Shown: piece after piece, positions 18,814 to 34,193 of the stretch
How positions within the stretch are numbered: the stretch's first letter is position 1
Layout of the letters: each line of letters opens with the position of its first letter
NCBI RefSeq assembly: GCF_030389965.1
Contig: NZ_CP128399.1
Location: 744,001-808,000, forward strand
Length of the DNA: 64,000 nt
Reading direction: 5' to 3'
Origin: Candidatus Chlorohelix allophototropha
Lineage (GTDB): Bacteria > Chloroflexota > Chloroflexia > Chloroheliales > Chloroheliaceae
The notes under the pieces: generated by a model
The model's input: the letters and a program-made list of their open reading frames with translations, nothing else
Databases searched by the model: none
What the model was told of the DNA's origin: nothing
Made by a program: the position numbers and the translations under genes

Positions 18814-20004
18814 ATGAAACAAGCTAAACCGGTGCGTGTGTTAGACAAAGGCGCGGCGTTTAAGTTTGTGGTGCTATTAGGTGTAGTTAGTCTATTTGGT
18901 GACATGACCTACGAGGGGGCGCGCAGTATAACCGGACCTTATCTTTCTCTGCTTGGGGCAAGCGCGGCGGTGGTCGGGCTTGTAGCAGGCTTTGGAGAAC
19001 TAATCGGCTTTGGTTTACGTCTGTTTTCAGGTTATATCAGTGACAAAACCGGGCGTTATTGGACGATTACTATAGCAGGTTATGTGGTAAATCTGTTGGC
19101 TGTTCCGGCGTTGGCTTTGGCAGGAAGCTGGCAATTTGCTGCTCTGTTAATGATACTTGAGCGCACTGGTAAAGCCATTCGCGCTCCTTCCCGCGATGCC
19201 TTGCTCTCATATGCTACCAAACAGACCGGGCATGGTAAGGGCTTTGGCTTGCATGAGGCACTCGATCAGATAGGGGCGCTTACTGGTCCTTTGATAGTGG
19301 CATTGGTGATGTGGTACCGTGCAGGTAACGGCAAAGAGGATTATGCTACTGCCTTTGCCTTTTTGTTAATTCCCGCGCTACTGGCAATTGGTTTGGTTTT
19401 GATTGCACGTTTTTTGTATCCACGCCTGACCGATCTTGACGCAGCTTTGCCCACGCCTGACCCTACCGGCTGGAAACGCACCTTCTGGCTTTATCTGGGT
19501 GGGGTGGGGTTGGTGGCAGCCGGTTATGCCGATTTCCCTTTGCTGGCTTACCATTTTGAAAAAGCTGATGTGCTGTCGGGTAATATTATCCCGTTGGTAT
19601 ATTCGCTGGCGATGGGTGTGGATGCGGTGGCGGCGCTGTTATTCGGCAGGCTATTTGATAAATCAGGGATACAGGCGCTGGTTATATCAACTCTCCTATC
19701 GGCAGGATTTGCACCGCTGGCGTTTACCGGCAGCCCGGTGTTGGTAATAGCAGGTGCGGTTTTATGGGGCGTTGGGATGGGTGCACAGGAATCGATTATG
19801 CGAGCAGCAGTGGCGAAACTTGTTCCGATAGAACGGCGCGGAACTGCTTTTGGGGTATTCAACACGGGCTATGGCTTGTGCTGGTTTGCTGGTAGCGCCT
19901 TGATGGGTTTCATGTATGATATTTCTATTCCGCTGCTGGTAACTTTTTCTGTGGCGGTACAATTAGTCGCAATTTTCTTTTTCGTAGTTGCCAGCAAGGA
20001 CTAA
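18814..20004 (+). CDS. Major facilitator superfamily transporter
   Basis: A 396-residue polytopic protein with the MFS pattern: about 12 membrane helices, loop 2-3 motif GYISDKTGRYW, and a central basic loop around residues 195-220. As the last gene of the operon, 26 nt after the kinase, it is a candidate exporter or importer of the compound handled by the ligase and kinase. The substrate cannot be read from the sequence. It ends 18 nt from the convergent sensor kinase gene, with no obvious terminator in the gap. Confidence 0.88.
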   Translation: MKQAKPVRVLDKGAAFKFVVLLGVVSLFGDMTYEGARSITGPYLSLLGASAAVVGLVAGFGELIGFGLRLFSGYISDKTGRYWTITIAGYVVNLLAVPALALAGSWQFAALLMILERTGKAIRAPSRDALLSYATKQTGHGKGFGLHEALDQIGALTGPLIVALVMWYRAGNGKEDYATAFAFLLIPALLAIGLVLIARFLYPRLTDLDAALPTPDPTGWKRTFWLYLGGVGLVAAGYADFPLLAYHFEKADVLSGNIIPLVYSLAMGVDAVAALLFGRLFDKSGIQALVISTLLSAGFAPLAFTGSPVLVIAGAVLWGVGMGAQESIMRAAVAKLVPIERRGTAFGVFNTGYGLCWFAGSALMGFMYDISIPLLVTFSVAVQLVAIFFFVVASKD

Positions 20005-20022
20005 GGAATTATCGCGACAGTT

Positions 20023-21849
20023 TCAAACCGTTTGCGGGGTGGTTGTACCCACTTCTACGGGTAATGTAACGGTGAAAGTTGTTCCTTTTCCCGGCTCACT
20101 CTCTGCTATTATATCACCGCCCATAATGAGGCAAAGGCTTTGGGCTAAAGCTAATCCGAGTCCTGTGCCACCATACTTGCGGGTAGTAGAAGCATCTGCT
20201 TGGGTAAAGGGTTGGAACAAACGGGGTATATTATCAGCTTCAATTCCTATCCCGGTATCCCTTACCCTGAAAATAATTGTATTGGACATATCCCTACGTC
20301 TTTCGATCTCAAGTGAAACTGTTCCTTCATAGGTAAATTTGCAAGCGTTGCTAAGCAGGTTATATAGCGTTTGCCTAACTTTGAGTACATCGCTGTACAT
20401 GCTCCCAACGTTGGGTGGCACAAATACCAGAAGGCGGTTATTATTTTTTCGCGCTAAGGGTTCAACCATATTTATTATCCCATTTACTATATCTCGAATA
20501 TCAAACAACTCAAGATGCAGCTCCATTTTCCCGGCTTCGATTTTAGAAAAGTCTAGCACATCACTAATGATGGAGAGTAAATGCTGCCCGGCGTTATGGA
20601 TTCTCTCTAGGTCATTATTTATTGCAGACTGTTCGGTGTAGCCAATTTCTTCCTGCAACATTTCACTATAACCGATAATTGCATTCAGGGGAGTACGCAA
20701 CTCGTGGCTCATATTTGCAAGGAATATGCTTTTAGCGCGGTTCGCGGCTTCTGACGCTTCTTTTGCCTTGCGCAGTTCTAATTCACTTTGATTTTGCTGA
20801 ATCTGATAGGCTTCTATAGTTTCAAGCATCTGGTTAATCGATTGTCCCAAACTGGCGATTTCATCTTTACCCAGTTCAGGCACCCGAATCGACAGGTCGG
20901 ATTTAGCGGTAACCCTACCAACATCGGTATTAAGGCGGGTAATGCGTGCCACTACCATTTTTTCGAGTATGAACATTGCCAGTAACCCAAAAGCCAAGCC
21001 GATAAGAATTAATGAAATTAACTGGTAGGTAACGGTGGTTTTCCCTTGAGTGTATATCAGGCGCGGTTCTTCGATTTTTAAAATTGCTACTGGTAACCCA
21101 TAAATATCTTTAAGTATCGTGTATCCGGCAATCCGATTTTCATCAAGAATTTGAATAATAATCGGAGCTTCTTGATTTGGGGTAAGGGTTTCGCTAATCA
21201 GATTTTTTTCATTAGCTAAAGCTGGGTCATCATAGTCATAAATGGTAATATTAACTTTAGTATGATTACTTAAATGTTGGATGAACGAATCGTCCAAATT
21301 TCGACCCATTACCAAGAGACCTCGCGCCGGGCTATTCCCCTTGCTATTCAAAATTGGGCTGGCTGCCACCAAAGCGATACCATCATTAAGTTTTAGTAGT
21401 CCGTATATTATAGGGTCATTGCTATTTATGCTATTTAAGTTGTAAAGTTTCGGAATCAGGTCGGCTGGTAAAGGTGTACCCTTATAACCTGCTAGATCAA
21501 AACTGCTTCCATAAACCACTTTTTTCGAATTGTTAAGTATTACCAGAAAGTTCAATTCTGCTCTGGCGAGGGTGAAACTATTGAGATTCGTTACAGCATA
21601 GGCTGAGTTCTCATCATCTATGTATTGGTAGGTATCATCCCGATAAGCCCAGCCCTGTGCGGTGAGACCGAGTTGTTCGATTTCATTGGTATAGATTCCA
21701 AGTACCCGTCTGACGTTTTCCTTGGTGTCGTATTCCTCTACATGTAAATAGCCATTCAGAATGATAACTGTAAAGGCGAAATACAGCAGTATTGAAATAA
21801 AGAATACTACCAAGCTTGTAACTAAAAGTGTTTTGAGTCGAAGATTCAT
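20023..21849 (-). CDS. CHASE4-HAMP sensor histidine kinase
   Basis: A 608-residue membrane sensor. TM1 is at about 8-30, then an extracellular CHASE4-type domain (about 35-270, with [13 protein letters not shown] and [18 protein letters not shown]), TM2 at about 275-297, HAMP, a short coiled coil, HisKA with phospho-His H382 in [15 protein letters not shown], and HATPase_c with N box [15 protein letters not shown] and [15 protein letters not shown]4 domains bind unknown small ligands. No receiver domain is fused and no response-regulator gene is adjacent, so the partner is elsewhere. Confidence 0.92.
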
Positions 21850-22430
21850 AAGTCAAACAATTCCGTACAATATTGCGAAGAACCTAGAGCGAGGAGTTTT
21901 CTTGCGCACTATCCGCTATGCCTCTATTCTATGATAATTCGATATAAAATAGCCAATTTTGGCGTGGATTACGCTAATCCTCTAGGTGTTGTGCTTAGTT
22001 TAGCATTTAAATATTAAGAAAAAGCTTACAGGAATGCCGTTTAGATAAATTTAGCCGATTAAGAGCGCTTTGACCTACGGCAATATACCGTTGGCGAGTG
22101 GGTGCGACAGAAAATTTTGCAATCAACCAGTATTAGCTAAATCAAACTTAGCCTGTCCTTTTTACCCGCTTTTGTCTACCCCTTTTCCCTTGCAAAAATT
22201 TCTACCACACCACATAAATTTCTTAATGTTTCCGTAATGTGTATTGTAATGTAAAATTCATACAATTACATTGCTGTAATAATTACTTGTTGATTCTTTT
22301 AACTCCAAACTAAATAGATACCTGTAACCTATTTCATTTAGGCATATTTGAGCTACCGATACACTGGGTTGGGAATTTTACTTACGCTCCAACCCAATAA
22401 TGCCCATGTTTTTGAGAGTCTTACTAAGCT
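21850..22430. other. Divergent regulatory region upstream of the PATAN/B12 operon
   Basis: A 580-bp AT-rich region without credible genes. It contains the inverted repeat at 22248-22272 and further TAATGT words around 22235-22250. I looked for a cobalamin riboswitch B12 box because the operon contains cobO, and saw none. Confidence 0.45.
22248..22272. promoter_or_regulatory. Candidate operator: inverted repeat AATGTAA-N11-TTACATT
   Basis: Perfect 7-bp arms (22248-22254 and 22266-22272) with an 11-bp spacer, about 160 bp upstream of the first gene of the PATAN operon. The half-site centres are 18 bp apart, compatible with a dimeric repressor. The AT-rich context makes chance occurrence possible. 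Confidence 0.35.
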
Positions 22431-22970
22431 ATGAACCAGTCTGAAGGCATATCGGTTGTAAAAATCTTGGTTATTGGAGTACCTCCCTCTGTAGGTACTC
22501 AATTTATTAATTCGATAAATATGCTAAATCCGAGTTCAATACACCAGAAATATGGGGCAATATTGCCGCCAATATTCGAATCACTCAGTATTGGCTTTGG
22601 AGAACTCAAAATTGACCAGCACACCATGCTGCACTTCTATGATATTCCAAACCCTGAAGTGATAAGCCCCTTCTGGGATATCTTAGCTCAAAATTGTATT
22701 GGCGATATTTTGGTAATGCATGATTATAGTGATGAGTGCATTAGCGCAGCATTAAAAATTATTAATTTTTATCTTCTTAAGCTAAGAATGGTGTCGACAA
22801 TTGTTATAAATAGTTCTAGTCCAATTGGAACTTTTCCACTTCAAACTATTCGTAAGAAGCTGAAATTACCAAAAGATGTGCAGATGTTCGAATGTGACAT
22901 AGCTAGACCTGCTAGTGTAAAAGTTGTCCTTTTAGGATTGTTAGAACATATTTATCATCTAAGTAAGTGA
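22431..22970 (+). CDS. Degenerate small GTPase-like protein
   Basis: A 179-residue protein that reads like the small GTPases often encoded beside Roadblock or PATAN proteins: VVKILVIGVPPSVGTQFINSIN at the P-loop, then LHFYDIPNPE in the switch region, DILVMHDYSDE and STIVINSSS. The P-loop lacks the GxxxxGK(S/T) Lys (it reads GVPPSVGTQF), and the usual NKxD-type guanine motif is replaced. It is therefore probably nucleotide-free or binds in another way. It is the first gene of an eight-gene operon, 16 nt before the cobO-like gene. The family call is moderate and the loss of GTP hydrolysis is an inference. Confidence 0.65.
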   Translation: MNQSEGISVVKILVIGVPPSVGTQFINSINMLNPSSIHQKYGAILPPIFESLSIGFGELKIDQHTMLHFYDIPNPEVISPFWDILAQNCIGDILVMHDYSDECISAALKIINFYLLKLRMVSTIVINSSSPIGTFPLQTIRKKLKLPKDVQMFECDIARPASVKVVLLGLLEHIYHLSK

Positions 22971-22986
22971 CGAGAAAGATCAAATA

Positions 22987-23652
22987 ATGCATCCACCCGA
23001 AATAGACGAGGTTGACCCCAAACATTCTACAAATGAAGTTGATCCAGAAGTAGCGCCCGATATAAGTGAGGAAGAACGTCTCGCCCGCCAACTTTCCAGC
23101 CATAAAGATAGAATTAAGAAAACCAAATACGCTACTAGGAAAAATCTGGTACTGGTAAATACAGGCATTGGAAAAGGCAAAACCACCGCCGCTTTTGGGA
23201 TGTTGGTACGCGCTTGGGGTCAGGGTATGGATGTATGCATGCTCCAGTTTATCAAAGCTAAAACAGCTAATTGGGGCGAAGAAAAAGCTGCCAGAAAAAT
23301 TGATATTGAAATGATACAGCTTGGCGATGGTTTTACTTGGCTCTCTGAAGATATTGAAAAGGATAAGGAATTAGCTCGCACGGGCTGGAAACTTTGTAAA
23401 GAGAAAATTTTGTCAGGGAAATATGACCTGATAGTATTGGATGAGTTAACTTATATTTTGAAATATGGTTGGCTTGATTGGAATGAGGTAAAAGAGACCT
23501 TAGATAATAGACCAAACCGCACCCATGTAGCGATAACCGGACGATATGCGCCGCCAGAATTAATCGAATACGCCGATCTCGTGACGGAAATGACCGAGAT
23601 TAAACATCCTTACCACGCCAACATTAAAGCTCAAAAAGGAATTGAGTTTTAA
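22987..23652 (+). CDS. cobO: Corrinoid adenosyltransferase (CobO/BtuR/CobA type)
   Basis: Transfers the 5'-deoxyadenosyl group from ATP to cob(I)alamin or cob(I)yrinate diamide, giving adenosylcobalamin. A P-loop NTPase variant is clear: LVNTGIGKGKTTAAFGMLVRAWGQG, then MLQFIKA, YDLIVLDELTYILKYGWL and a C-terminal KHPYHANIKAQKGIEF, the family's end motif. The N-terminal 45 residues are a charged extension. In this operon it is not with other cobalamin-synthesis genes. It sits upstream of a protein with a CarH-like adenosylcobalamin-binding domain, which suggests a dedicated cofactor supply (inference). Confidence 0.93.
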   Translation: MHPPEIDEVDPKHSTNEVDPEVAPDISEEERLARQLSSHKDRIKKTKYATRKNLVLVNTGIGKGKTTAAFGMLVRAWGQGMDVCMLQFIKAKTANWGEEKAARKIDIEMIQLGDGFTWLSEDIEKDKELARTGWKLCKEKILSGKYDLIVLDELTYILKYGWLDWNEVKETLDNRPNRTHVAITGRYAPPELIEYADLVTEMTEIKHPYHANIKAQKGIEF

Positions 23653-23708
23653 TTTGGCAAGTCCAAAACTGATCTTGCGAATTAGGGTGTAACCTTTTGG
23701 AGCCAAAC

Positions 23709-25139
23709 GTGAATCAAATCTTTAGCCACAGATTATTGCCTCAGCTAATAAAGGTTATCGAGAATGAAAAAGCCGAAGGCATGTTGGTCTGTAACCAGAA
23801 TAACCAGAATTTTATTCATTTGATGTTTCATGAAGGCTGCCTTACTTATATTTGCGGCGGTATTAGAGAAGCCACTTCGGAAAAATTACTAAGTGAGCTA
23901 TTAACTTGGGATCAATACACGCTGGAATGGCACAAATTACCATTACTCATAAGCTACAAAAATATTGAGGATGACATCAGAAATGCCTTTATGGTAGCTA
24001 TTCAAATTCTGACAAATGATGGTAAGTTCGATAAGTTTATCGAATCCATTCTTCCCGATATAGCCCCACTTGTAGAGCACACTACTAATGCAAACGAACA
24101 AAATAATATCCCAGAGCCGGAAGAATCTAAACCGATTGTCCCTCCGTTTGAAGCTGAAGTGGAAAATACTAACCCAGTTAAAAGCGAACCTGAAATTATA
24201 TTACCAATAGAAACTACTGCAAAAGTTCTCGAAAGCGCAGGGCAAAGCATTCTACCTCCTTCGGTTTCTGCTACGCACAACAACCAAGTTCTCGAAATAC
24301 CGCAACAACCAAGCTATCCATACCAACTGTTAAAAACCAGTTTGCTCTTACCGGAGGGGCAGCACCAAAACCAATTAGACGAGTTATTGTCAAATCTATC
24401 GTTACAAGAGCAACTGGATAGTCTTCAAAAATTCCGTTTTACCGGTTATATCTACTACCATTTAGATTCGGTTACACAGGTGGAAGCCCAACAGCAGTAT
24501 GGATTGGCTCTATTCTATGATGGGTCTAATCTGGATATCGTGTATCACAATGAAAATGAAGAAAAGCGATTATTCGGGTCGCTAGCATTTGAAAAATTGG
24601 CTGCATTTCGATTGCATCCTGAAATATACAAAGTTGAGGCTCGCGTACTTAAAGCCTATCGAGCGTTGGTGTCAGGCAATAAGCCTTACCAAGATTTAAA
24701 AGCCAGCAAAGCCAATCTTACCAAAATACACGAAGCCTTCAAACAATCACATCAAGATGGAGTAGCCCTTCTTTATTTTGACAGTTTGAAACTGTATTAC
24801 TTCTTCTTTTACGAAGGGGGAGCGCAGATTGGGATTTACGGACCTGAGCCAAACACCGGCAAATTGCAGTTGCTGACCGGCGCTTTAGCTGTACCACCTA
24901 GCGATTCTAAAGCATTGATTACCGTAATGCTTGCCACACCCGCCGGGAAAACCAAACCTGAGTCTGCGGCTAAACTTAACCCAGCACAACCCAGTAGTGA
25001 AGATATAGGAACCATAATCTCCAGACAACTGGATGCCAGTAAATCAAATCTACCTGAAATTTCAGGAGCAGTAGATTGGGGCGACCTTTTTTCTAAAGTT
25101 AAAGATCCGACCGTTTCAACAGAAGCCAGGAGGGAATAA
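23709..25139 (+). CDS. PATAN (DUF4388) domain protein
   Basis: A protein of about 476 residues with no enzyme motif. An N-terminal DUF4388/PATAN domain (about 1-90: LLPQLIKVIENEKAEGMLVC, FHEGCLTYICGG, LSELLTWDQYTLEW) is followed by a Pro/Glu-rich linker (about 120-200). Two more PATAN-like modules follow, with LDSLQKFRFTGYIYYHL and EAFKQSHQDGVALLYFDS. PATAN proteins are signalling scaffolds in bacteria with Mgl-type GTPases and two-component systems. The start is taken as GTG 23709, with GGAG 6 nt upstream; a TTG at 23697 would overlap that ribosome binding site. The next gene starts 3 nt after its stop. Confidence 0.8.
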   Translation: MNQIFSHRLLPQLIKVIENEKAEGMLVCNQNNQNFIHLMFHEGCLTYICGGIREATSEKLLSELLTWDQYTLEWHKLPLLISYKNIEDDIRNAFMVAIQILTNDGKFDKFIESILPDIAPLVEHTTNANEQNNIPEPEESKPIVPPFEAEVENTNPVKSEPEIILPIETTAKVLESAGQSILPPSVSATHNNQVLEIPQQPSYPYQLLKTSLLLPEGQHQNQLDELLSNLSLQEQLDSLQKFRFTGYIYYHLDSVTQVEAQQQYGLALFYDGSNLDIVYHNENEEKRLFGSLAFEKLAAFRLHPEIYKVEARVLKAYRALVSGNKPYQDLKASKANLTKIHEAFKQSHQDGVALLYFDSLKLYYFFFYEGGAQIGIYGPEPNTGKLQLLTGALAVPPSDSKALITVMLATPAGKTKPESAAKLNPAQPSSEDIGTIISRQLDASKSNLPEISGAVDWGDLFSKVKDPTVSTEARRE

Positions 25140-25142
25140 GCT

Positions 25143-26123
25143 GTGACAGCCGTAATAATGGACATGCGCACTATTGCCAATAACTTGAGGCAGCATCTTC
25201 GACAAAATGTGAGCGCTTTCATCCGCCAGTACAATCAAACGCCCGGATTAGTCGTAATGGCAATGTGTGATGATCGAGCAACAATTGATAATATTCGCTC
25301 TCTTTCAAATGTGGCAACCGATGCCGGCATCCATTTTTCAGCTCAACTCTTTCCTAATAACGTTAAAATCCATGAGTTGAGAAAATATATTGAACAACAT
25401 AATCAAGACAGCAGCATTCATGCCATTTCGCTTCAGCTACCATTGCCTAAACATTTGAATGTTGATGAGGTAGCAAGTTTTATCTCTCCTGAAAAAGATG
25501 TTGAGGGTTTGCACCCAACTAATATGGGTCACCTCTTAATGGGAAAACCCAATCTTGTGCCGTCATCTGCTCTAAGCGCGATTAAGTTGCTAGGTCTGTA
25601 TAATATCAATCCTACCAGTCGTCACGCCGTAATCGTAGGGCGTAGTCTGGAAGTGGGTCGCCCTTTAGCCTGCTTGTTGACAAAGGCTGATGCAACAGTA
25701 ACCCTTTGCCATACCCAAACCAACAATCTTCTTGCACATACCCGTCAAGCTGAAATCCTGATTGTTGCCGCCGGTGAACCGGGGTTGATTAAAGCCGAAA
25801 TGATTCGACCGGGCGCGGTGGTCATTGATTACGGGTTAAATTATGTTGCGCGGGATAAAGTGATCGGTGATGTTGAATTCGAAAGAAGCCTAACCGTGGC
25901 TGGCGCAATAACCCCTGTGCCGGGTGGAATTGGTCCTTTGACGAATATATGCCTTTTGGAAAATGTGTTAAAAGCTGCACGGGCAATAGCAAGCGTAGAA
26001 CGAACCAGTCCTAGGGCTATTATCGATTCAGACCCTGCTGTAGGACTAAAACCGGAGGGTAAACCAGCCCTAGATTACAAACCAAACCAGATACCACCGA
26101 TGGCTGTAGTAGGAGCCGCTTAA
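25143..26123 (+). CDS. FolD-family protein (methylene-THF dehydrogenase/cyclohydrolase fold) lacking catalytic Lys and Tyr
   Basis: A 326-residue protein colinear with E. coli FolD without gaps up to residue 122. The Rossmann half is well preserved: VIVGRSLEVGRP, ATVTLCHTQT, PGAVVIDYGLN, GDVEFE and ITPVPGGIGPLT, so NAD(P) binding is expected. In the catalytic half, the essential Lys54 is Leu, Tyr50 is Asn and Asp121 is Glu. Gln98 and Gly122 remain, and the CTP motif is SSA. Normal dehydrogenase/cyclohydrolase activity is therefore unlikely. A C-terminal tail of about 45 residues beyond the family end is Pro-rich. The GTG start has AGGAGG 9 nt upstream, inside the end of the previous gene. Its place among PATAN genes suggests a sensor or scaffold role (inference). 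Confidence 0.88.
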   Translation: MTAVIMDMRTIANNLRQHLRQNVSAFIRQYNQTPGLVVMAMCDDRATIDNIRSLSNVATDAGIHFSAQLFPNNVKIHELRKYIEQHNQDSSIHAISLQLPLPKHLNVDEVASFISPEKDVEGLHPTNMGHLLMGKPNLVPSSALSAIKLLGLYNINPTSRHAVIVGRSLEVGRPLACLLTKADATVTLCHTQTNNLLAHTRQAEILIVAAGEPGLIKAEMIRPGAVVIDYGLNYVARDKVIGDVEFERSLTVAGAITPVPGGIGPLTNICLLENVLKAARAIASVERTSPRAIIDSDPAVGLKPEGKPALDYKPNQIPPMAVVGAA

Positions 26124-26172
26124 ATTGTGACTAACTCAGTATTGTTCTCTCTCTATCCTGGAGTCATTTGAA

Positions 26173-28356
26173 ATGAAACTAGAACATTCTACCCTGTCAA
26201 CCTTACTAATAGAGTGCGAACAGCAAGGTAGTTCCGGTCTACTGCATTGCCAAAATACCACCAAGCACTATACCTTATCTTTAAAGGAAGGTAAGCTTGT
26301 ACATGCCGAGGCAGAAGACAATGCGGCAACCAATGAAGCTTTCATTTTAAGTGATTTGCTGCGCTGGCAAAACGGTGAGATATGGTTTGAAACATCAGAA
26401 ATCGTAAATCCGCATACAATCACCGACAGCCAAGAAAAAATCTTCCGTATGGCGTTATCACTTTTACAAAAGGGTGAAAATGAGTCGGATACATGCCGTC
26501 AAATTCAGTCCAAACTCGCCGGAGGCACAAAATCTCTGCGAGAAAAGAAACCTTCCGTTGAAGTACAAATACCGGAGATAAGCGCTGCGGTGGAGAAACA
26601 AAGCTCAGCTTATACAGAAACACCACTGGCTATAGAAGAAGAAATAATGCAAGCCGAGCCTGAGTTGGTTGAATTTGAGAATGTAAGCTTTGCTTTGAAT
26701 CAAACTGAGGTTACTGAGATAGAGCACACTCTAGCAGAGGCAAGCGCTACCACAGAGCTATCGGAATTGATATTTGAGCTTGACCGCATGGAAACAGCCG
26801 AGTCGCACTCTTTAGTTGAGCAGCCTGAATTTATATTGGGTCAATCCTTGCAAGCAGAAGCTTCCGATCACTCTGAAGAAACTGAATATGAATTCAAATT
26901 AGACCAAATACTGGCAGAATCAACAGAGCAAATATCGGAACAGTTGAGCATAAACCCGGAATCGGCAGTTGAAGCAGAATCCTTGTCAGAAGATCACCCT
27001 GAGTTTGACCTAGATTCTAAACCCGCCGAGCAACCAAACACCAGTAACGAAATAGACTATCCTGAATTTAGTCTAGACAATGAGCATTTTGCAACTGTTG
27101 CCACTAATTCCGCTGAAGAACAGCCTGAATTTAGTCTAGGCTATGACTCGCAAGCAGCACTGGAAGAAAGCTATACCGAGTTTAAATTGTCGCATGATAC
27201 CCCGACGCCAGAAACGCCTGATGAATTTAACCTAGGTCATCAGTATTCGGCACCTAACGATGGCATGGAGAAGTTTCAAACTGAGTTTATACAGGCTTCG
27301 CAGTTGGAGGGAAATGAGGCAGGAATCCTCAGTCTAGAAGATCCTCAAAACTATGCCATTGCTTCAGATGCTTTGCTATACGATAGTAGTGAGCCGCTGC
27401 CAGAGTTCAGCCTTATGCAAACCGAAAATGCCGCAAATGAGATGGATGAGCCTGAATTTACCCTAGGCCCACAAATTCCAGAGGGTATGATAGCAATTTT
27501 TGGCATTGAGGCAGTCCACACAAACTCGGTTAGATCAAGTGAAATTCAAGAAACATTTGAAAACCAAGATTCGTTTGTGCAAGTTGAAAACGAAGCGGCT
27601 AACCCACCCGCGCAAGAGGCAAGAACTGAACCTGATAGCTATTTGCCAGTATATCAGGAGGCAAGAGCTGAGCGAGTAGTAACCGCACGTGACAATTTCA
27701 CTTTATCTCAGGAATGTCTGCCTCCTTCTACCCTGACGAATTGGGAGCAAGATGGCTTGAATATCATTTCACAACATGCTCCTAGCCCTGATATAAGTTG
27801 GATTATCAAGCGGGCGACACAAGTTAAACTGGAAGGGTATCTGGAAGTTAATGGGCGAAATCTAAACTCGGCATATTTTTCTAGATTATTTTTCCAAGAT
27901 GGTAATATTACATTCCAAAGTTTTGATGATGGTAACCAGCAGTATTTTGGTGAAGCAGCCTTACAACGCTTATATTGTGCGCCTTTACCCGATCTTTCTG
28001 ATATTAAAATCGGCAGATGTGCTCCCGGAATACTGGATGCCTACCTGACAACGCGAATACCTGCACCTAGCAGTTTAAGAGGATTGCAGTGTCAGAGCGA
28101 CAATATTATGGAACGAATGCTCCGGTTGGTAAAGAACCACTTTACTGGCAGCATTGTTTTCTATAACTCAACCGGACTAGTCTATTATCTTATGCATGAG
28201 GGACACGGTTTTGGCGGTTATCAACAGCAAGAAAATATGATGACTAGAGTAAAACAAACAATGAATCGGTTTGTGGAAGCGCCAGACACAAAGTATGACA
28301 TACACCCGGCAATTCCGAAAAAGCTACTTGAGGATTGGATGTTCATAGAGAGCTAA
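26173..28356 (+). CDS. PATAN (DUF4388) protein with long acidic linker carrying repeated EFxL motifs
   Basis: A 727-residue protein. An N-terminal PATAN domain (about 1-95: LLIECEQQGSSGLLHCQN, LKEGKLVHAEAEDN, LSDLLRWQNGEIWF) is followed by an acidic, probably disordered segment (about 130-500). The segment contains nine short motifs of the form (P/T/Y/D)EFxL(D/G/S), such as PEFSLD, PEFSLG and TEFKLS. The C-terminal 190 residues hold two more PATAN-like modules (VKLEGYLEVNGR, KNHFTGSIVFYNSTGLVYYL). The repeated motif looks like an array of docking sites for a partner protein. GGAG lies 10 nt before the ATG. Confidence 0.8.
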   Translation: MKLEHSTLSTLLIECEQQGSSGLLHCQNTTKHYTLSLKEGKLVHAEAEDNAATNEAFILSDLLRWQNGEIWFETSEIVNPHTITDSQEKIFRMALSLLQKGENESDTCRQIQSKLAGGTKSLREKKPSVEVQIPEISAAVEKQSSAYTETPLAIEEEIMQAEPELVEFENVSFALNQTEVTEIEHTLAEASATTELSELIFELDRMETAESHSLVEQPEFILGQSLQAEASDHSEETEYEFKLDQILAESTEQISEQLSINPESAVEAESLSEDHPEFDLDSKPAEQPNTSNEIDYPEFSLDNEHFATVATNSAEEQPEFSLGYDSQAALEESYTEFKLSHDTPTPETPDEFNLGHQYSAPNDGMEKFQTEFIQASQLEGNEAGILSLEDPQNYAIASDALLYDSSEPLPEFSLMQTENAANEMDEPEFTLGPQIPEGMIAIFGIEAVHTNSVRSSEIQETFENQDSFVQVENEAANPPAQEARTEPDSYLPVYQEARAERVVTARDNFTLSQECLPPSTLTNWEQDGLNIISQHAPSPDISWIIKRATQVKLEGYLEVNGRNLNSAYFSRLFFQDGNITFQSFDDGNQQYFGEAALQRLYCAPLPDLSDIKIGRCAPGILDAYLTTRIPAPSSLRGLQCQSDNIMERMLRLVKNHFTGSIVFYNSTGLVYYLMHEGHGFGGYQQQENMMTRVKQTMNRFVEAPDTKYDIHPAIPKKLLEDWMFIES

Positions 28357-28382
28357 AATTTTAAAGGTTAAGGCGGAAAAGA

Positions 28383-30638
28383 ATGAGCATTACGATTGAA
28401 ACCAAATACGAGTTCCATAAATTAGCTTCTATGATTGAAGAGGCTAAAGCCAATCAGTTCACCGGACGTTTGGCTTGTCAGCAAGGTGATAAGCTGGCTT
28501 ATATTTATATGGATACTGGAAATATTACCCATGCAACCAGTGATACAGCAATTGGCGAAGAGGCTTTGTATATTTTATTGGGCTGGAACGATGGCACAAT
28601 AGAATTCCAACCCAAATCCTCTGAGCCTGATTATGATACTAGCTGTAGCATTGACCATCAACAAGGGTTACTTTTCCGAGAAACTTTACAACTTTTCCAA
28701 CCAGCCCCGTCCAGTATTGTAATTACTCCGCCGAAAGTCGAAACTATGGAATATAGCGAAAAACAAAATCCGATTCATACACAAGTACCTGTGACTAATA
28801 ATAACCTGAGCAAAGATGAAACGCACCAGAATAATGGAGCAACCGCCCATAACTTTGGTAACACCGTTTTTCCGGGTCTGGGTTTGTCCGTTTCATTGGC
28901 GCAAGAGTCTCCTACACTTGAGCTACTCCAATTAGGCAATAAATCACAGGGAACTGAGATTTCTCGCCAAAAAACAAACCTGTTACCTTTTATCCAACAG
29001 GCAATAGCCGACCATTTTACTGGCTTTTTCTTGACCTCTATCAAGATCGAGAATAGAGCTGAAAAAAGCCTGCTCGTATTGGAAGAGGGCATAATCACTT
29101 TGGCGCGTTATAGCGCACCGGGTAGTATCCTGACCGGTCAAGCCGCTTTTGATGCCTCGATTATGTTTGCAAACCTGAGTAACTGGACTCTCACTACCGC
29201 TACTTCAAACACCAAAGAGCTAAAAGGCTATCGGGCTATCCTGAGCAATATTATCGCCCAAAGTAACCTTCAAGCTACTTCCGAAACCATAATGAAACTG
29301 GCTCAGGAATCAATCCAGCACAAATCCTCAATTATCTTGAAACTGCATACCCACTCTCGCACGCTTTATTATCTGATCATTGAAGGTGAGGCGTTGGGTT
29401 GTTACGAAGTGCTGAATAACACCCTCGAAAAAACCGAGGTGCTATTTGTGCAAATGTTAACTGAGGCAGATGTGAAACTCGATATGCTAAGTGTTCCCGA
29501 TCTAGAGAAAATTAGTATGGCTTCGCTGCAACCGATTCAGGCGCTAGGAGCGAGTATGAATGGTAATGCAAAAAAACCAGAAATGGCTCTGCCGGGATTG
29601 ATGGTTGCTAGCCCTAAATCGGCTAAAGCAGAACCGACTGTCGGTTCTGCTGCGAATAAAGAGTCCGCAGAGGAACTACCGGTAGATTGGTGGAGCGTTA
29701 AAGAAAAAGGGCGACGTCCTTATTCTAATCTAGCTGCCAGCCAGCCAAACTTTAATGGACTACGCCGTGCCTTTGAAAAAGATGCCTATACCGGAATTAT
29801 CGAAGTAAAAGGCATAGGTCAGGAATTGTACTACCTAATTGAGCAAGGTGTACCTTTAGGTTTGTTCAAGTTTGACCAGCAGACCAAAAAATATATTCCC
29901 TCGAATTTTACAATTTTACATGCCTTAGCCAAACCTGAGAACCACCTGAATGTTTATTTGGAACAAAAGCGGGTAGCGCCTCAGCAATATTATGAGTTGT
30001 ATCTTGAAGCGCTTGAAGCTGGCTCATTCAATCAAGCAGTGCAGGTAGTACAACAAGCGCTTAGAGATGGGGTAGTCCACGAAACAATTTATGATGCCGT
30101 TTTTACCAGAGCGATGCGCCAAGTGGGGGTGCTTTGGGAGAAGGGGAAAATGACCGTAGCACAGGAACACTTGGCTACTGGCATTACAGAATATTGCCGC
30201 AATTTGGTACTTAGCAGTAAAGCCGGTGTACCAAAAAAACGAATCGGGCGAGCTTTGCTAACTAGCGTGAGTGGCAATACCCATACCCTCGGTTTAAACT
30301 TGCTGGGCGATGCCTTGCGTTGGGCTGGGTGGGAAGTTTATCCACTAAATTCTGAATTGCCTGAGTTAGAAATCGTGGATGCTGCCAAGCGCCATCAAAT
30401 AGATATGGTTTGTCTATCAGTCTCACTACCGGGACAAATTTTCCGAGCAATCAAAGCCATTCGGGCGTTGCGCCAGAGCGGTTGGATTGGCATTATAGAG
30501 GTAGGTGGGGCAGCTATTTACAATAACCCGAATGCATTACAAAGTATTGGGGCTGACATTCTTGGAAGTGATGTGGAAAGTACGGTAGAGCAAACCACTC
30601 GGCTCATGGAACATCGGTTAGCTAACAAGCAGAATTAA
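28383..30638 (+). CDS. PATAN protein fused to a CarH-like cobalamin-binding domain
   Basis: A 751-residue protein with an N-terminal PATAN domain (about 1-95), two further PATAN-like modules (about 205-350 and 445-525), then a cobalamin-binding region (about 530-751). The helical cap contains LWEKGKMTVAQEH, i.e. W585-x9-E595-H596. That is the signature of adenosylcobalamin photoreceptors of the CarH/LitR type, in which these residues pack against the adenosyl group. The Rossmann part has SGNTHTLGLNLLGDALRWAGWEV; H634 is the expected lower axial ligand, although the DxHxxG motif has Asn for Asp. There is no MerR DNA-binding domain. The protein is probably a cobalamin-dependent, possibly light-responsive, signalling protein whose output passes through PATAN domains (inference). 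cobO is in the same operon. Confidence 0.87.
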   Translation: MSITIETKYEFHKLASMIEEAKANQFTGRLACQQGDKLAYIYMDTGNITHATSDTAIGEEALYILLGWNDGTIEFQPKSSEPDYDTSCSIDHQQGLLFRETLQLFQPAPSSIVITPPKVETMEYSEKQNPIHTQVPVTNNNLSKDETHQNNGATAHNFGNTVFPGLGLSVSLAQESPTLELLQLGNKSQGTEISRQKTNLLPFIQQAIADHFTGFFLTSIKIENRAEKSLLVLEEGIITLARYSAPGSILTGQAAFDASIMFANLSNWTLTTATSNTKELKGYRAILSNIIAQSNLQATSETIMKLAQESIQHKSSIILKLHTHSRTLYYLIIEGEALGCYEVLNNTLEKTEVLFVQMLTEADVKLDMLSVPDLEKISMASLQPIQALGASMNGNAKKPEMALPGLMVASPKSAKAEPTVGSAANKESAEELPVDWWSVKEKGRRPYSNLAASQPNFNGLRRAFEKDAYTGIIEVKGIGQELYYLIEQGVPLGLFKFDQQTKKYIPSNFTILHALAKPENHLNVYLEQKRVAPQQYYELYLEALEAGSFNQAVQVVQQALRDGVVHETIYDAVFTRAMRQVGVLWEKGKMTVAQEHLATGITEYCRNLVLSSKAGVPKKRIGRALLTSVSGNTHTLGLNLLGDALRWAGWEVYPLNSELPELEIVDAAKRHQIDMVCLSVSLPGQIFRAIKAIRALRQSGWIGIIEVGGAAIYNNPNALQSIGADILGSDVESTVEQTTRLMEHRLANKQN

Positions 30639-30653
30639 GTTGTATGGTGAAAT

Positions 30654-31256
30654 ATGTTAGATCGGAAAATAGAATCCGCGGTTGAGGAACTTAAAGCTGA
30701 AGTTGGGGAATTATTACAAAATTATCGTTGTGATCGTGAATCCTCAAATAAAATGCTACACCAACAAATCCAAGAGGATCACTTAAATCTGCACAAAAAT
30801 GTAAGCCATTATTTGAAGGATTTAGCTGATACTAGGATTGAAAATAACCGCAACCAAGCGGGGAGTTTGAAAGCAGAAACAGTTCAGCGCAAACATGATA
30901 TTGCCAGCTATCTTGCCAGTTTAAGGCAGAAACGGCTGAGTATGCGATGTGTGAGTACAAATGGTCATAATGTGCATGAAGACCTTTGTAAGGAAGATGC
31001 TGCTGTAACTCCTCCTTTGCCTCTAGCCGAAGAACCGACCAAAGAAGAGCCTATTCAGTTATCTGAGTTGGTTTATTATCTCTTATCAAATAATTCTGAC
31101 CGACTTAGTTTGAACGATTTAACCGAATATTTTGGTGTCGCTCGGGTAGAAAAATATTGGGATAATTTGCTAATTCTCGCCGAAGAGTTTCGACCCGGTA
31201 GTAAAAAAGAGCTGGTACGACAGCGCCGCAGAAGCATTAACACAAAAGCAAAATAA
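30654..31256 (+). CDS. Coiled-coil protein of unknown function
   Basis: A 200-residue protein. Residues 1-100 are predicted by eye as a long, charged coiled coil (AVEELKAEVGELLQNYR, HKNVSHYLKDLADTRIENN, RKHDIASYLASLRQKRL), then a Pro-rich linker and a C-terminal globular part (about 130-185, LSELVYYLLSNNSDRLSLNDLTEYFG). The C-terminus is very basic. It resembles GvpC-type repeats superficially, but no gas-vesicle genes are near. Spacing of 15 and 12 nt to its neighbours places it in the PATAN operon. Confidence 0.7.
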   Translation: MLDRKIESAVEELKAEVGELLQNYRCDRESSNKMLHQQIQEDHLNLHKNVSHYLKDLADTRIENNRNQAGSLKAETVQRKHDIASYLASLRQKRLSMRCVSTNGHNVHEDLCKEDAAVTPPLPLAEEPTKEEPIQLSELVYYLLSNNSDRLSLNDLTEYFGVARVEKYWDNLLILAEEFRPGSKKELVRQRRRSINTKAK

Positions 31257-31268
31257 GGAGTTATTACT

Positions 31269-31715
31269 ATGCTACAATCTCAAATTAATCTGAACCTGCG
31301 CTTAAATTATCCTGCTCTCGCTACTGCCATAGAACAAAATGCCGAGGTTGTTGAAGTTGAGTTAGCAGAACGCCTGCTGGAATCAGGTGTATTTGCGCAG
31401 TATGCCTCTGCTACCCTTGCCAATACCGTTGCCAACCAGATGGTTTCCTTAGTTACTGTCAGCTTATTGATTGGCGACCTCACGCCTTTCTATAACATCG
31501 TTATCTGGGAAAGCAATGCAGTCATGAACAATCAGGGCTTTTTCAAACGGGATAGCGATATGTCCCTGATTAACATATTTCAAGGTATTCTATTAGATCG
31601 GCTTGACCCTTCTTTAGCTGGCGATATTCAGGCATTGGCTAACCAAATGCGTGCAATCTTCGAATATAGTTGGCGTGAAATAGTTACGGGAATGCAAAAC
31701 AAGCCTAAAAGCTAA
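31269..31715 (+). CDS. Unknown protein, last gene of PATAN operon
   Basis: A 148-residue, mildly hydrophobic protein, mostly helical by eye (LAERLLESGVFAQYASATLANTVANQMVSLVTVSLLIGDLTPF, cut here by description rather than domain). AAGGAG lies 8 nt before the ATG. No family recognised and no catalytic motif seen. Confidence 0.65.
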   Translation: MLQSQINLNLRLNYPALATAIEQNAEVVEVELAERLLESGVFAQYASATLANTVANQMVSLVTVSLLIGDLTPFYNIVIWESNAVMNNQGFFKRDSDMSLINIFQGILLDRLDPSLAGDIQALANQMRAIFEYSWREIVTGMQNKPKS

Positions 31716-32208
31716 ACAGATGGTGACATCCCATTTTTGGGGTAACGCTGTAAGCCTCAAAACAAGTGTGCCAACAAGGTCACTCTCTTAGCTTGGCTTT
31801 GTGCAATTTTACAAAACCGTCACCGACCGAACCCAACCCAGTAGTTCACATAATGTCGTAGTTTACGAGCTAAAATTGATGCCTTGGATGCTGAGACGAT
31901 AAAGCGGGTAGTTCCAGCGATGAGGCTCGACCGACTTATATAGCTATAGCTACCTAGCGCGAATGGGTTCGGCTATATTCCAACCTAGCCGATGAAATTG
32001 GTCGCTACCGCAATGAAATTCACGCCTTACTTTTTGTGATATTCCCAGAATATAGGCAGGTCTTTGGTAACCCTTGCCGTCCCCCTGCTTTTGATATGGG
32101 CACTTAATTATTTTTGGCTCCCTTATCAGCCTGCTGAGGCGGTAAGGTTAATTAATTCCTGAAATTTCATTTCTTTTATCTGACTTTGCAAATACCTTGC
32201 GAAAATAC
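31716..32208. other. Intergenic region with transposase remnant
   Basis: Between the PATAN operon and the DUF2292 gene. The only recognisable content is the IS110-type remnant at 31780-32100. No intact ORF. Confidence 0.5.
31780..32100 (+). pseudogene. Decayed IS110-family transposase fragment
   Basis: Pieces of an IS110-type (DEDD) transposase appear in more than one plus-strand frame with stops between them. An NPVVH segment from 31835 is followed, after a frame change, by RSLRAKIDALDAETIKR and then REWVRLYSNLADEIGRYRN and EIHALLFVIFPEYRQVF. The order and wording match the central part of these transposases. No full-length copy and no clear ends remain. Confidence 0.75.
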
Positions 32209-32237
32209 TTGACAAAATAGCTAAACTAAGTTAGGAT
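32209..32237 (+). promoter_or_regulatory. Probable sigma-70 promoter of the DUF2292 gene
   Basis: A perfect -35 TTGACA (32209-32214), a 17-bp spacer and TAGGAT (32232-32237) as the -10. Predicted start is near 32244, giving a leader of about 60 nt before the gene at 32303. Confidence 0.65.
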
Positions 32238-32302
32238 TAATTTACCAAAGGGTAGGTTATACTTTGTCTATTTTGATAGTCTCATGTGGAGTTATTTAGT
32301 AA

Positions 32303-32491
32303 TTGCAAGAAGAACAAACAGCTAATAATCACAATAGCCTGAATAACCTAAACCCTCAAGAGGCTGAAGTGCTGGTACAAATATTGCACTCTCTTAGGCA
32401 AATTAAATATGGCTATATCCAGATTACAATTCAAGATGCCAGGGTAGTACAAATTGATCGCACCGAAAAACAGCGTATCAATTGTAAGTAA
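32303..32491 (+). CDS. DUF2292 (YezD-like) small protein
   Basis: A 62-residue protein matching the small DUF2292 family: a conserved block ILHSLRQIKYGYIQITIQDARVVQIDRTEK fills the second half. The 20-odd N-terminal residues are Asn/Gln-rich. Start is TTG; no ATG is available in frame. In other bacteria this family is often near sulfur-assimilation genes, but none are here. Exact role unknown. Confidence 0.8.
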   Translation: MQEEQTANNHNSLNNLNPQEAEVLVQILHSLRQIKYGYIQITIQDARVVQIDRTEKQRINCK

Positions 32492-32850
32492 TAAATTTAG
32501 GGATTTTGCTCTAGAGATTTTGGAAAGTTGCGCCGCTTTGAACTTGAGCTAAAGCTAAGAAAGAACGAGCAAGCTAAGGTTTTTAGCAAATCTAAAGCTT
32601 ATGTGCCTGATTAAAGCGGCGACTTATCGCGACAGGAAAGGCGCAATAGCACCTTCCAGTAATGGTTGCACTTGTCTAACCAGAGAAACCCAGAAACCAG
32701 ACCTCAAGTTACTTTGATTGGCTTATTCCATCTATGATTCACAGTCACAACACTTTTAGCGCTAAAGTTTGATTGAGCCAAGTTCTCTGGGTTATTATAA
32801 AATGCGCATTATGTCACATGCCTTAAATAGGCTCTAATTCATTTCTATGA
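32492..32850. other. Intergenic region, nothing recognised
   Basis: About 360 bp between the DUF2292 gene and the convergent small genes. No ORF with a ribosome binding site, no RNA gene and no strong terminator seen. Confidence 0.4.
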
Positions 32851-33108
32851 CTAAATTTCTTTCTTTACCCTTTTATTTAGCCAATCGATAGCCATTCCCA
32901 AACCATCATCTTTACCATGTTCGCTACTGATATAAAAATAATAACAACGTCCTGCTAATTTTTTACCCGGTACACTAAAATCTTGCGAACGGACACAGTA
33001 AGGAAGAGATCCTGATGCTACCGCGCGATCAAGCGCTATAATTTCTGCACTACTCCAACCGGTTATTGAAAATTTTCGGTTGTCACCAGTGTTACTTAAT
33101 AATTCCAA
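32851..33108 (-). CDS. Small hypothetical protein
   Basis: 85 residues starting at a TTG preceded by GAGGT. The sequence reads like a compact soluble domain (FSITGWSSAEIIALDRAVASG, RCYYFYISSEHG, MAIDWLNKRV). No family recognised. It is the last of three small minus-strand genes that are probably one transcript. Confidence 0.55.
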   Translation of the reverse strand: MELLSNTGDNRKFSITGWSSAEIIALDRAVASGSLPYCVRSQDFSVPGKKLAGRCYYFYISSEHGKDDGLGMAIDWLNKRVKKEI

Positions 33109-33195
33109 TTAGACCTCTTTTCTACTGAAGTGATTATTTATTTTAATTAAAGAATCTCTTCGGTTCTTTATTTTTAGACAGCTCTAGCCATTGCT

Positions 33196-33480
33196 CTATT
33201 TTTCAGACAGGTTTTTTGATCGGTAAATTCTCAGGCAACTGGTTAACGCTGCTACTCCGTTGATTTTTACACCGGAAGATACTCGCAAATAACTCCAATC
33301 GCTCTCGCTATAATTTGACTGTACCAGTTGCTCAAAATTCAGCAATTGTTCTTCTTCCGCTTTGCTTAAGGAGATCAGTACCCCTTCTATTAATAAACGG
33401 TCTGCCAGAACAAGGCAGGTTCTTAAAATACTGGCTGCTTTAACCAACGAGTTGCGTATCTTTGGTTCTATTTCGCTCAT
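33196..33480 (-). CDS. Small hypothetical protein, helical
   Basis: 94 residues, mainly helical by eye (RNSLVKAASILRTCLVLADRLLIEG). GAGG lies 9 nt before the ATG. No family recognised. Confidence 0.6.
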   Translation of the reverse strand: MSEIEPKIRNSLVKAASILRTCLVLADRLLIEGVLISLSKAEEEQLLNFEQLVQSNYSESDWSYLRVSSGVKINGVAALTSCLRIYRSKNLSEK

Positions 33481-33527
33481 AACACTTTTCCTCAGAATTA
33501 CTATAACTACCGCTTATTAGCGTGATA

Positions 33528-33788
33528 CTAATCGAATTGCTTTACTTTTTCATAATTTGAACTGGCGATTGTCAAAAAATTGTTATCGTTAAATCCTAAT
33601 TTTTGAAGTAAGGTAGGATGCATACCGGAGTAAGCCTGTACTTTAACGCTACCATCATTGCTATCCATCTTCCAAACCATCCCTATGCGAATGGTTTTAC
33701 TATTGATTTTGAAGGCTACCAACGAATAGCGCGGAATTGCCTCGGCTTTCTTTTTTGAATCATATGACACACGGATTAAAAATTTCAT
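33528..33788 (-). CDS. Small hypothetical protein
   Basis: 86 residues from the ATG at 33788, which has AGGGGA 5-7 nt upstream; an in-frame upstream start at 33833 lacks such a site. The protein looks beta-rich (KFLIRVSYDSKKKAEAI, YSLVAFKINSKTIRIG). No family recognised. First of the three small genes. Confidence 0.6.
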   Translation of the reverse strand: MKFLIRVSYDSKKKAEAIPRYSLVAFKINSKTIRIGMVWKMDSNDGSVKVQAYSGMHPTLLQKLGFNDNNFLTIASSNYEKVKQFD

Positions 33789-34193
33789 TATTTCCCCTAA
33801 AAAACATATAGGTTTTCTCTCTCGGATTGTCACCAGCGACAGCCCGAAATTTTTAGAACTAAAATCTTGTTATAAAGGTAGGAACTGTTAAATAGCTTCT
33901 ATTATCCCTTAGCTTAAGGGTGCGGGGTCTGGAATGTTGATAACAATTTCAGACCCAAACCGGAAGCGGATTTTCAGTTGCCACCGGATTTTTTATTATC
34001 AAGCCCGAAACTGCAATAATAAGAAGTCCCGGTTTTCAATTATGTTTGATTTATGGCTGAAACCGGAGTAAAACAATCTCAACTTTAAAAAAAGCAGAAA
34101 CGTAGAAAAGAGGATAAAGATTTTAAATCTTGAAAGATTTAAGTGGAAGGGAACTTAAGGTATTTGTAATTTCCAACTAAGAAAAAATGTTTT

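Follow-up and report, generated by a model that had tools for sequence, protein, structure and literature searches.

An eight-gene operon of the phototroph Candidatus Chlorohelix allophototropha that may encode a scaffold complex which senses B12, and probably light, and targets gas vesicles

What would an operon do that brings a corrinoid adenosyltransferase and a cobalamin-binding protein together with scaffold proteins and two degenerate enzymes? The eight genes in question lie on chromosome 1 of Candidatus Chlorohelix allophototropha L227-S17, a lake bacterium whose phototrophy relies on a type I reaction centre. This bacterium and the MAG L227-5C are the reported type-I-reaction-centre Chloroflexota, and its closed genome has, in addition to two plasmids and a chromid, two chromosomes of 2.96 and 2.45 Mb (PMC10972752); the genome analysed here comprises 5 contigs with a total of 6.09 Mb, the largest two of 2.96 and 2.45 Mb. 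Within the window, that is, the whole stretch of 64,000 nucleotides that was analysed, eight open reading frames on the forward strand, p1 to p8, occupy 22431-31715 (Table 1) and are separated, in order, by 16, 44, 3, 49, 26, 15 and 12 nt. The first-pass annotation had described an operon of eight genes on one strand with gaps of 3-56 nt; the operon is present and the tight spacing stands, although the upper bound does not, the measured range being 3-49 nt. Its family calls mostly hold by Pfam and NCBIfam (CobO, the FolD family, PATAN and B12-binding), with some corrections. No Rfam RNA, and hence no cobalamin riboswitch, was found in window 20000-34000 at E-values up to 1, and given that a search for promoters and terminators around the operon returned no clear candidate exceeding shuffled sequence, it is from the gene spacing that we infer the co-transcription of p1-p8 as one operon. 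Immediately 3' of the operon, non-coding sequence at window 31950-32090 (+) partly resembles the decayed remains of a transposase, by eye one of the IS110 kind. Further on, a small ORF at window 32851-33108 (-) is 45% identical over 60 aa to an L227-5C ORF (L194:4410-4799) that has a gas-vesicle cluster within a few kb.

Table 1. Genes of the operon, with their positions in the window, their assignments and the basis of each.
Gene	Position	Strand	Assignment	Basis
p1	22431..22970	+	pseudo-GTPase, MglA-like family	homologue search, motif alignment
p2	22987..23652	+	CobO/BtuR corrinoid adenosyltransferase	PF02572 2e-65, NCBIfam PRK05986
p3	23697..25139	+	PATAN-type scaffold, TTG start	DUF4388 13.9 bits, profile match to p6
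p4	25143..26123	+	pseudo-FolD	PF02882 1e-56, PF00763 4e-22
p5	26173..28356	+	PATAN scaffold, long acidic linker, conserved C-terminal domain	DUF4388 2e-6
p6	28383..30638	+	PATAN + cobalamin-binding domain, CarH/photocobilin type	DUF4388, PF02607, PF02310
p7	30654..31256	+	short GvpC-like protein: 33-residue repeats + C-terminal domain	
p8	31269..31715	+	predicted stand-alone globin-fold protein, no histidine	AlphaFold model, structure matches

The candidate sensor is p6, in which an N-terminal PATAN/DUF4388 region is followed by a helical bundle (B12-binding_2) and a Rossmann B12-binding domain, and for which the best PDB sequence matches are the photocobilins 8j2w/8j2y and CtMerR 8jbs. The light signature of cobalamin-binding domains consists, according to a published survey (PMC11796333), of GxxW, EH, GxxH and GxxxP. 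The first three are found in p6 (GVLW, EH and GNTH); the L227-5C orthologue has GxxW and EH as in p6, and its GxxH reads SENSH, with Glu in place of the first Gly. At GxxxP, p6 reads NSELP and the orthologue FSELP, the Pro being kept and the Gly lost; the Pro contacts the cofactor, and no cofactor contact was seen for the Gly (PMC11796333). The position of the CarH bis-His histidine is Glu in p6; SasPcob (Gln) and CtMerR (Arg), both of them proven photoreceptors, likewise lack His at this position (PMC11796333). By its contact residues p6 is thus a good candidate for a light sensor, one that the strict signature misses, and it would be expected to bind cobalamin and to respond to light. A search for relatives with two peptide patterns only matched L227-5C alone, and the AlphaFold model from the single sequence was unusable (pLDDT 38).

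Other cobalamin-binding proteins were seen in these genomes. The nearest relative of the p6 domain, 51-52% identical to it, is a stand-alone cobalamin-binding protein of L227-5C (L034:3445-5705, -) whose gene precedes that of a chemoreceptor (MCP) by 41 nt, which suggests that the p6 type of sensor is wired to behaviour in L227-5C too. On chromosome 1 of L227-S17, near 2744516 (L040:8484-10316, -), a PAS-HisKA-HATPase histidine kinase carries a C-terminal cobalamin-binding domain that shows the complete light signature and, as in CarH, a His right after the Trp, and by the textbook it is a better candidate for a B12 photoreceptor than p6 of the same genome. Stand-alone cobalamin domains with the full light signature and PAS-like neighbours occur in other Chloroflexia (L035:4179-6144, L036:1208-3264 and L038:6542-8262); at L035 the larger neighbour carries a STAS domain.

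A second possible element of the sensor is p8. Its AlphaFold model, built from two sequences, is all-helical (pLDDT 82, pTM 0.78). Its top matches in VIA-align are all globin-type folds: the N-terminal domain of RsbR, a non-heme globin, comes first (Z 12.8), and the others include a sensor domain of the heme globin type, smURFP, allophycocyanins and, from the photocobilin SasPcob, the globin domain (Z 10.7). Foldseek agrees with globin-type folds, with a best E-value of only 0.035 for this two-sequence model. A stand-alone globin fold is therefore predicted for p8, and since the protein contains no histidine, the usual heme ligand is impossible and the fold would be non-heme. Nor is binding of a bilin supported, given that heme oxygenase PF01126 is absent from both L227-S17 and L227-5C, although a bilin might have another source. 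The p8 orthologue is found in L227-5C only (44-46% identical); 301 Chloroflexota genomes, a sample outside which L227-5C falls, held no homologue beyond p8 itself. On this model, the presence of a cobalamin domain and a stand-alone globin in one locus resembles a split photocobilin.

Two of the proteins are degenerate enzymes. In p4, the catalytic YxxxK reads NxxxL and the folate Asp is Glu, so that the reading of p4 as a dead FolD is upheld in that both the Tyr and the Lys are gone; the loss of the Lys is not diagnostic, however, because it is absent from nearly all FolDs of the class. The L227-5C orthologue is 55% identical, forms a clade with p4 (support 100/100), also lacks the Tyr of YxxxK, has likewise lost the folate Asp and is missing the GRSxxVGxP cofactor loop. 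In a characterised enzyme the Tyr is needed for folate affinity (PMC6443876). Given the loss of the Tyr in both orthologues, the loss of the loop in that of L227-5C and the presence of two further FolD genes in each of the two genomes, catalysis is unlikely to be what is conserved in p4. A role of p4 as a folate antenna, with methenyl-THF as a second chromophore, is disfavoured by the loss of the folate-affinity Tyr in both orthologues. A single-sequence search of the genome contigs returned no relatives of p4. Elsewhere (L164:5410-6923), the gene after that of a FolD lacking the catalytic Lys encodes an FchA-like cyclohydrolase, an arrangement that fits the loss of the FolD cyclohydrolase Lys across class Chloroflexia.

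A search with p1 among 301 Chloroflexota genomes gave hits in 57, with identities of about 24%, and a canonical paralogue in L227-S17 sits in a PATAN-GTPase-Roadblock operon (L162). Judged against eleven aligned family members, p1 has lost the P-loop Lys of G1, and G3 (GTPGQ) has become DIPNPE and G4 (NKQD) NSSS; all three motifs tested are thus lost, as expected of the degenerate GTPase that had been proposed. A PDB sequence search gave no match for p1, and its divergent form is found in L227-S17 only. By these motifs p1 is a pseudo-GTPase, from the family whose members are found alongside PATAN and Roadblock proteins.

The adenosyltransferase p2, by contrast with the two pseudo-enzymes, retains its motifs (P-loop TGIGKGKTT, LDEL and ITGR) and is apparently active. 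The first pass had also considered that cobO might be the genome's only adenosyltransferase, placed here by accident; this is ruled out by a second CobO on chromosome 2, 75% identical to p2. In the tree the two are sisters (support 100/99), separate from the L227-5C copy. Of the 63 four-fold sites, 44 differ between them, and with silent sites near saturation while 72% of residues match, both copies are under purifying selection. Given that the duplicate is specific to Chlorohelix and that the L227-5C locus has no cobO, p2 is regarded as accessory and outside the conserved core.

Two further PATAN proteins accompany p6. Against the PF14332 (DUF4388) cut-off of 25 bits, p5 (28.3) and p6 (40.1) pass and p3 falls below; in profile comparison, p3 pairs with p6 at 96.8% probability and p5 with p6 at 97.5%. 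The acidic linker of p5 contains 9 EFxL motifs where shuffling gives an expectation of 0.39, and that of its L227-5C orthologue 11 EFx[LF] motifs, mostly EFDF, where 0.60 are expected, and the two linkers are scarcely alignable. The repeats suggest that p5 could be a multivalent docking scaffold. PATAN proteins are also encoded in a chemosensory cluster of both phototrophs (L165 and L167), with receiver, CheY-like, CheW-like and receptor-like genes.

The link to gas vesicles comes from p7. Its matches in 101 genomes are GvpC-like proteins only: one encoded on the second chromosome of L227-S17, where gvpA and gvpN flank its gene (phmmer 2.6e-14); another in L227-5C, beside a p3 homologue, which has the C-terminal domain in common with p7 (36%); and proteins of two more Chloroflexia, the gene of one lying near GvpF/L-like genes. 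The controls support the specificity of these matches, in that GvpC-like queries matched 0 of 300 shuffles and none of 846 unrelated ORFs was matched in either search direction. The autocorrelation of p7 is maximal at exactly 33 residues, as in all GvpC-like proteins compared, at a value that 0 of 500 shuffles reached at that offset and 27 of 500 at any offset; the GvpC repeat length is 33 residues (PMC9994262). Neither Pfam Gas_vesicle_C nor a PDB sequence search gave a match for p7. The Pfam model is not decisive for this lineage, however, given that the gvpA-adjacent GvpC of L227-S17 also falls below it (14.6 of 21 bits). By its repeat and its relatives, p7 is a GvpC-like protein of the gas-vesicle coat type. 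Some GvpC-like proteins of the lineage (L173:7530-9053 and L194:11093-12439) end in a winged-helix-like tail that is absent from classic GvpC.

How far these genes belong together can be judged from L227-5C, in which 4 of the 8 are in place and 2 more are located elsewhere. The L227-5C locus (L033) keeps the order p4-p5-p6, with p8 divergently oriented upstream, and has neither cobO nor the pseudo-GTPase. This core of p4, p5, p6 and p8 occurs in only 2 of the 5 family genomes searched, L227-S17 and L227-5C, the same two that alone among the five have FMO and gas-vesicle genes; resting on two genomes, the co-occurrence is suggestive only. Homologues of p3 in L227-5C lie outside the core, one on its own (L168, 44% over 270 aa) and one (L174, 35% over 484 aa) in a row with a NarL-type response regulator and the p7 homologue. 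The regulator is 55-61% identical to those that flank the gvp clusters of both genomes, and the chance that a p3 homologue falls within 3 kb of a GvpC-like gene is roughly estimated at about 0.6% (2 and 3 copies, 6.3 Mb). The row would thus be an independent link between PATAN scaffolds and gas vesicles.

The best explanation, to which a probability of roughly 45% is given, is that the operon encodes a B12-dependent, probably light-sensing scaffold complex that acts on gas vesicles and so on buoyancy; that the proteins form a complex and that it acts on gas vesicles are steps that we infer. The complex is best explained as specific to the lineage of type-I-reaction-centre Chloroflexota. In its favour, the cobalamin domain of p6 is most like those of proven B12 photoreceptors and keeps the W, EH, H and P, and the core is confined to the two FMO-bearing phototrophs with gas-vesicle genes among the five family genomes. 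High gvpA expression is reported in the related lake genomes (PMC10972752), and planktonic phototrophs with gas vesicles shift slowly within the light gradient, a general statement made for green sulfur bacteria (PMC4053972). Counted against it are the absence from p6 of the Gly of GxxxP and of the CarH bis-His histidine, the position of the gvp cluster on the other chromosome, the position of the p7- and p3-type genes of L227-5C outside the core locus, the failure of p7 to reach the Pfam GvpC model, and the presence of several PATAN proteins in a CheY-CheW-chemoreceptor cluster, which makes pili or chemosensory signalling a possible output.

In this best explanation, p6 would bind adenosylcobalamin supplied by p2 and by the housekeeping CobO. 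Cleavage of the Co-C bond by green or blue light would then alter the state or oligomerisation of p6, as in CarH and the photocobilins. The PATAN proteins p3 and p5 would scaffold the complex, with about nine EFxL docking sites offered by p5, and p4, p1 and p8 would be non-catalytic partners that bind ligands or proteins and tune the signal. As the output, p7 would bind gas-vesicle shells and alter their strength, number or clustering, and the altered gas vesicles would change buoyancy and the position of the cell in the light field. In a stronger form, which must be considered doubtful, an adenosylcobalamin photoreceptor with its own cofactor enzyme would directly control gas-vesicle mechanics or assembly through PATAN scaffolds and a GvpC-like effector, giving light-gated buoyancy.

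It is possible that the same B12 and light complex has its output in type IV pili or a chemosensory system, with p7 as a helical adaptor drawn from the GvpC family. The cyanobacterial PATAN proteins PixG, PixE and LsiR link photoreceptors to pilus motors (PMC7690835), L227-S17 has the PATAN-CheY-CheW-chemoreceptor cluster at L165, and L227-5C couples a p6-type cobalamin domain with a chemoreceptor. However, this is considered unlikely, given that the operon contains no pilus or chemotaxis gene, that the relatives of p7 detectable in the 101 genomes are all GvpC-like, and that the p3-p7 link is found again in L227-5C beside a gvp-type regulator. That the operon senses metabolic status in place of light, p6 reading adenosylcobalamin, p4 reading folate or NADP and p2 setting the cofactor level, is also improbable: the phototroph-only occurrence argues for light, the Tyr on which folate affinity depends (PMC6443876) is lost in both p4 orthologues, that of L227-5C lacks the cofactor loop as well, and there is neither a CobO in the L227-5C locus nor a cobalamin riboswitch near the operon. 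Such a sensor would account for the presence of CobO beside both a cobalamin-binding protein and a relative of FolD, and in a photocobilin study predicted links to the one-carbon pool by folate are reported to be frequent (PMC10979010).

Finally, the cluster may be partly fortuitous, an old p4-p5-p6-p8 unit to which p1, p2, p3 and p7 were joined by rearrangement in Chlorohelix with no functional unity. L227-5C has just 4 of the 8 genes in one place, cobO arose by duplication within the lineage and the divergent p1 is confined to L227-S17; nevertheless, all eight genes are tightly spaced, p2, itself under purifying selection, makes the cofactor expected for p6, and the p3 and p7 homologues are neighbours in L227-5C as well, which makes this quite improbable.

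The proposed complex acting on gas vesicles modifies the earlier reading. A cobalamin and light complex in which PATAN scaffolds are joined by a pseudo-FolD and a pseudo-GTPase agrees with the evidence and is strengthened by partial conservation in L227-5C, except that the pseudo-GTPase is outside the core; the gene set recurs in part in this one relative and not as a whole, and the proposed co-occurrence of cobO with the PATAN-B12 and FolD-like genes fails there, the core being kept without cobO. The notion of a self-contained system with a local cofactor supply is weakened by the lack of both cobO and the pseudo-GTPase from the L227-5C core and by the status of p2 as a lineage-specific duplicate. 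The two 3' proteins, previously called unknown and proposed as the output, are now a GvpC-like protein (33-residue repeat and relatives), plausible in this role, and a predicted globin, p8, which is more likely an input or partner than an output. The gas-vesicle link, the phototroph-only distribution and the docking-type EFxL repeats of p5 are additions.

B12 photoreceptors control transcription and second-messenger enzymes. If the complex acts as proposed, it would represent a new output class for them, a molecular input through which an anoxygenic phototroph controls its buoyancy and the first regulatory clue to the lake positioning of type-I-reaction-centre Chloroflexota. In the operon the putative B12 sensor would also come with an adenosyltransferase of its own and with two pseudo-enzymes recruited to it. 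The literature searched contained no PATAN-B12 photoreceptor with a gas-vesicle connection, and neither a PATAN fusion nor a gas-vesicle link appears in the list of fused domains in the main text of the light-signature survey (PMC11796333).

Among known systems, CarH has in common with p6 the helical bundle and the Rossmann cobalamin domain with W, EH and the lower-ligand His, whereas its N terminus is a MerR-type DNA-binding domain and that of p6 is PATAN, with no HTH; the bis-His histidine of CarH is Glu in p6, and the Gly of GxxxP is Asn. AerR of purple bacteria is likewise a B12 protein for regulation in an anoxygenic phototroph, but it controls photosystem genes and acts with the transcription factor CrtJ, for which the operon has no such gene. 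The photocobilins and photoglobins provide the closest solved cobalamin domains to p6, and a globin-fold protein is also predicted in the conserved locus; in photocobilins, however, the cobalamin and globin domains share one chain and the globin binds bilin, whereas the predicted globin p8 is a separate gene and the rest of the operon is without counterpart. The PATAN-GTPase-Roadblock modules of Chloroflexota are alike in their PATAN proteins and GTPase relative and unlike in that the GTPase motifs of the operon are lost and no Roadblock gene is present, and the PATAN response regulators of cyanobacterial phototaxis share the PATAN proteins, those of the operon being without a receiver domain. 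As to GvpC, the p7 gene lies off the gvp cluster on the other chromosome, encodes only about 2.5 repeats and differs in its C-terminal domain from the GvpC of the cluster, but the 33-residue helical repeats are common to both, and relatives of p7 adjoin gvpA and gvpN in these genomes.
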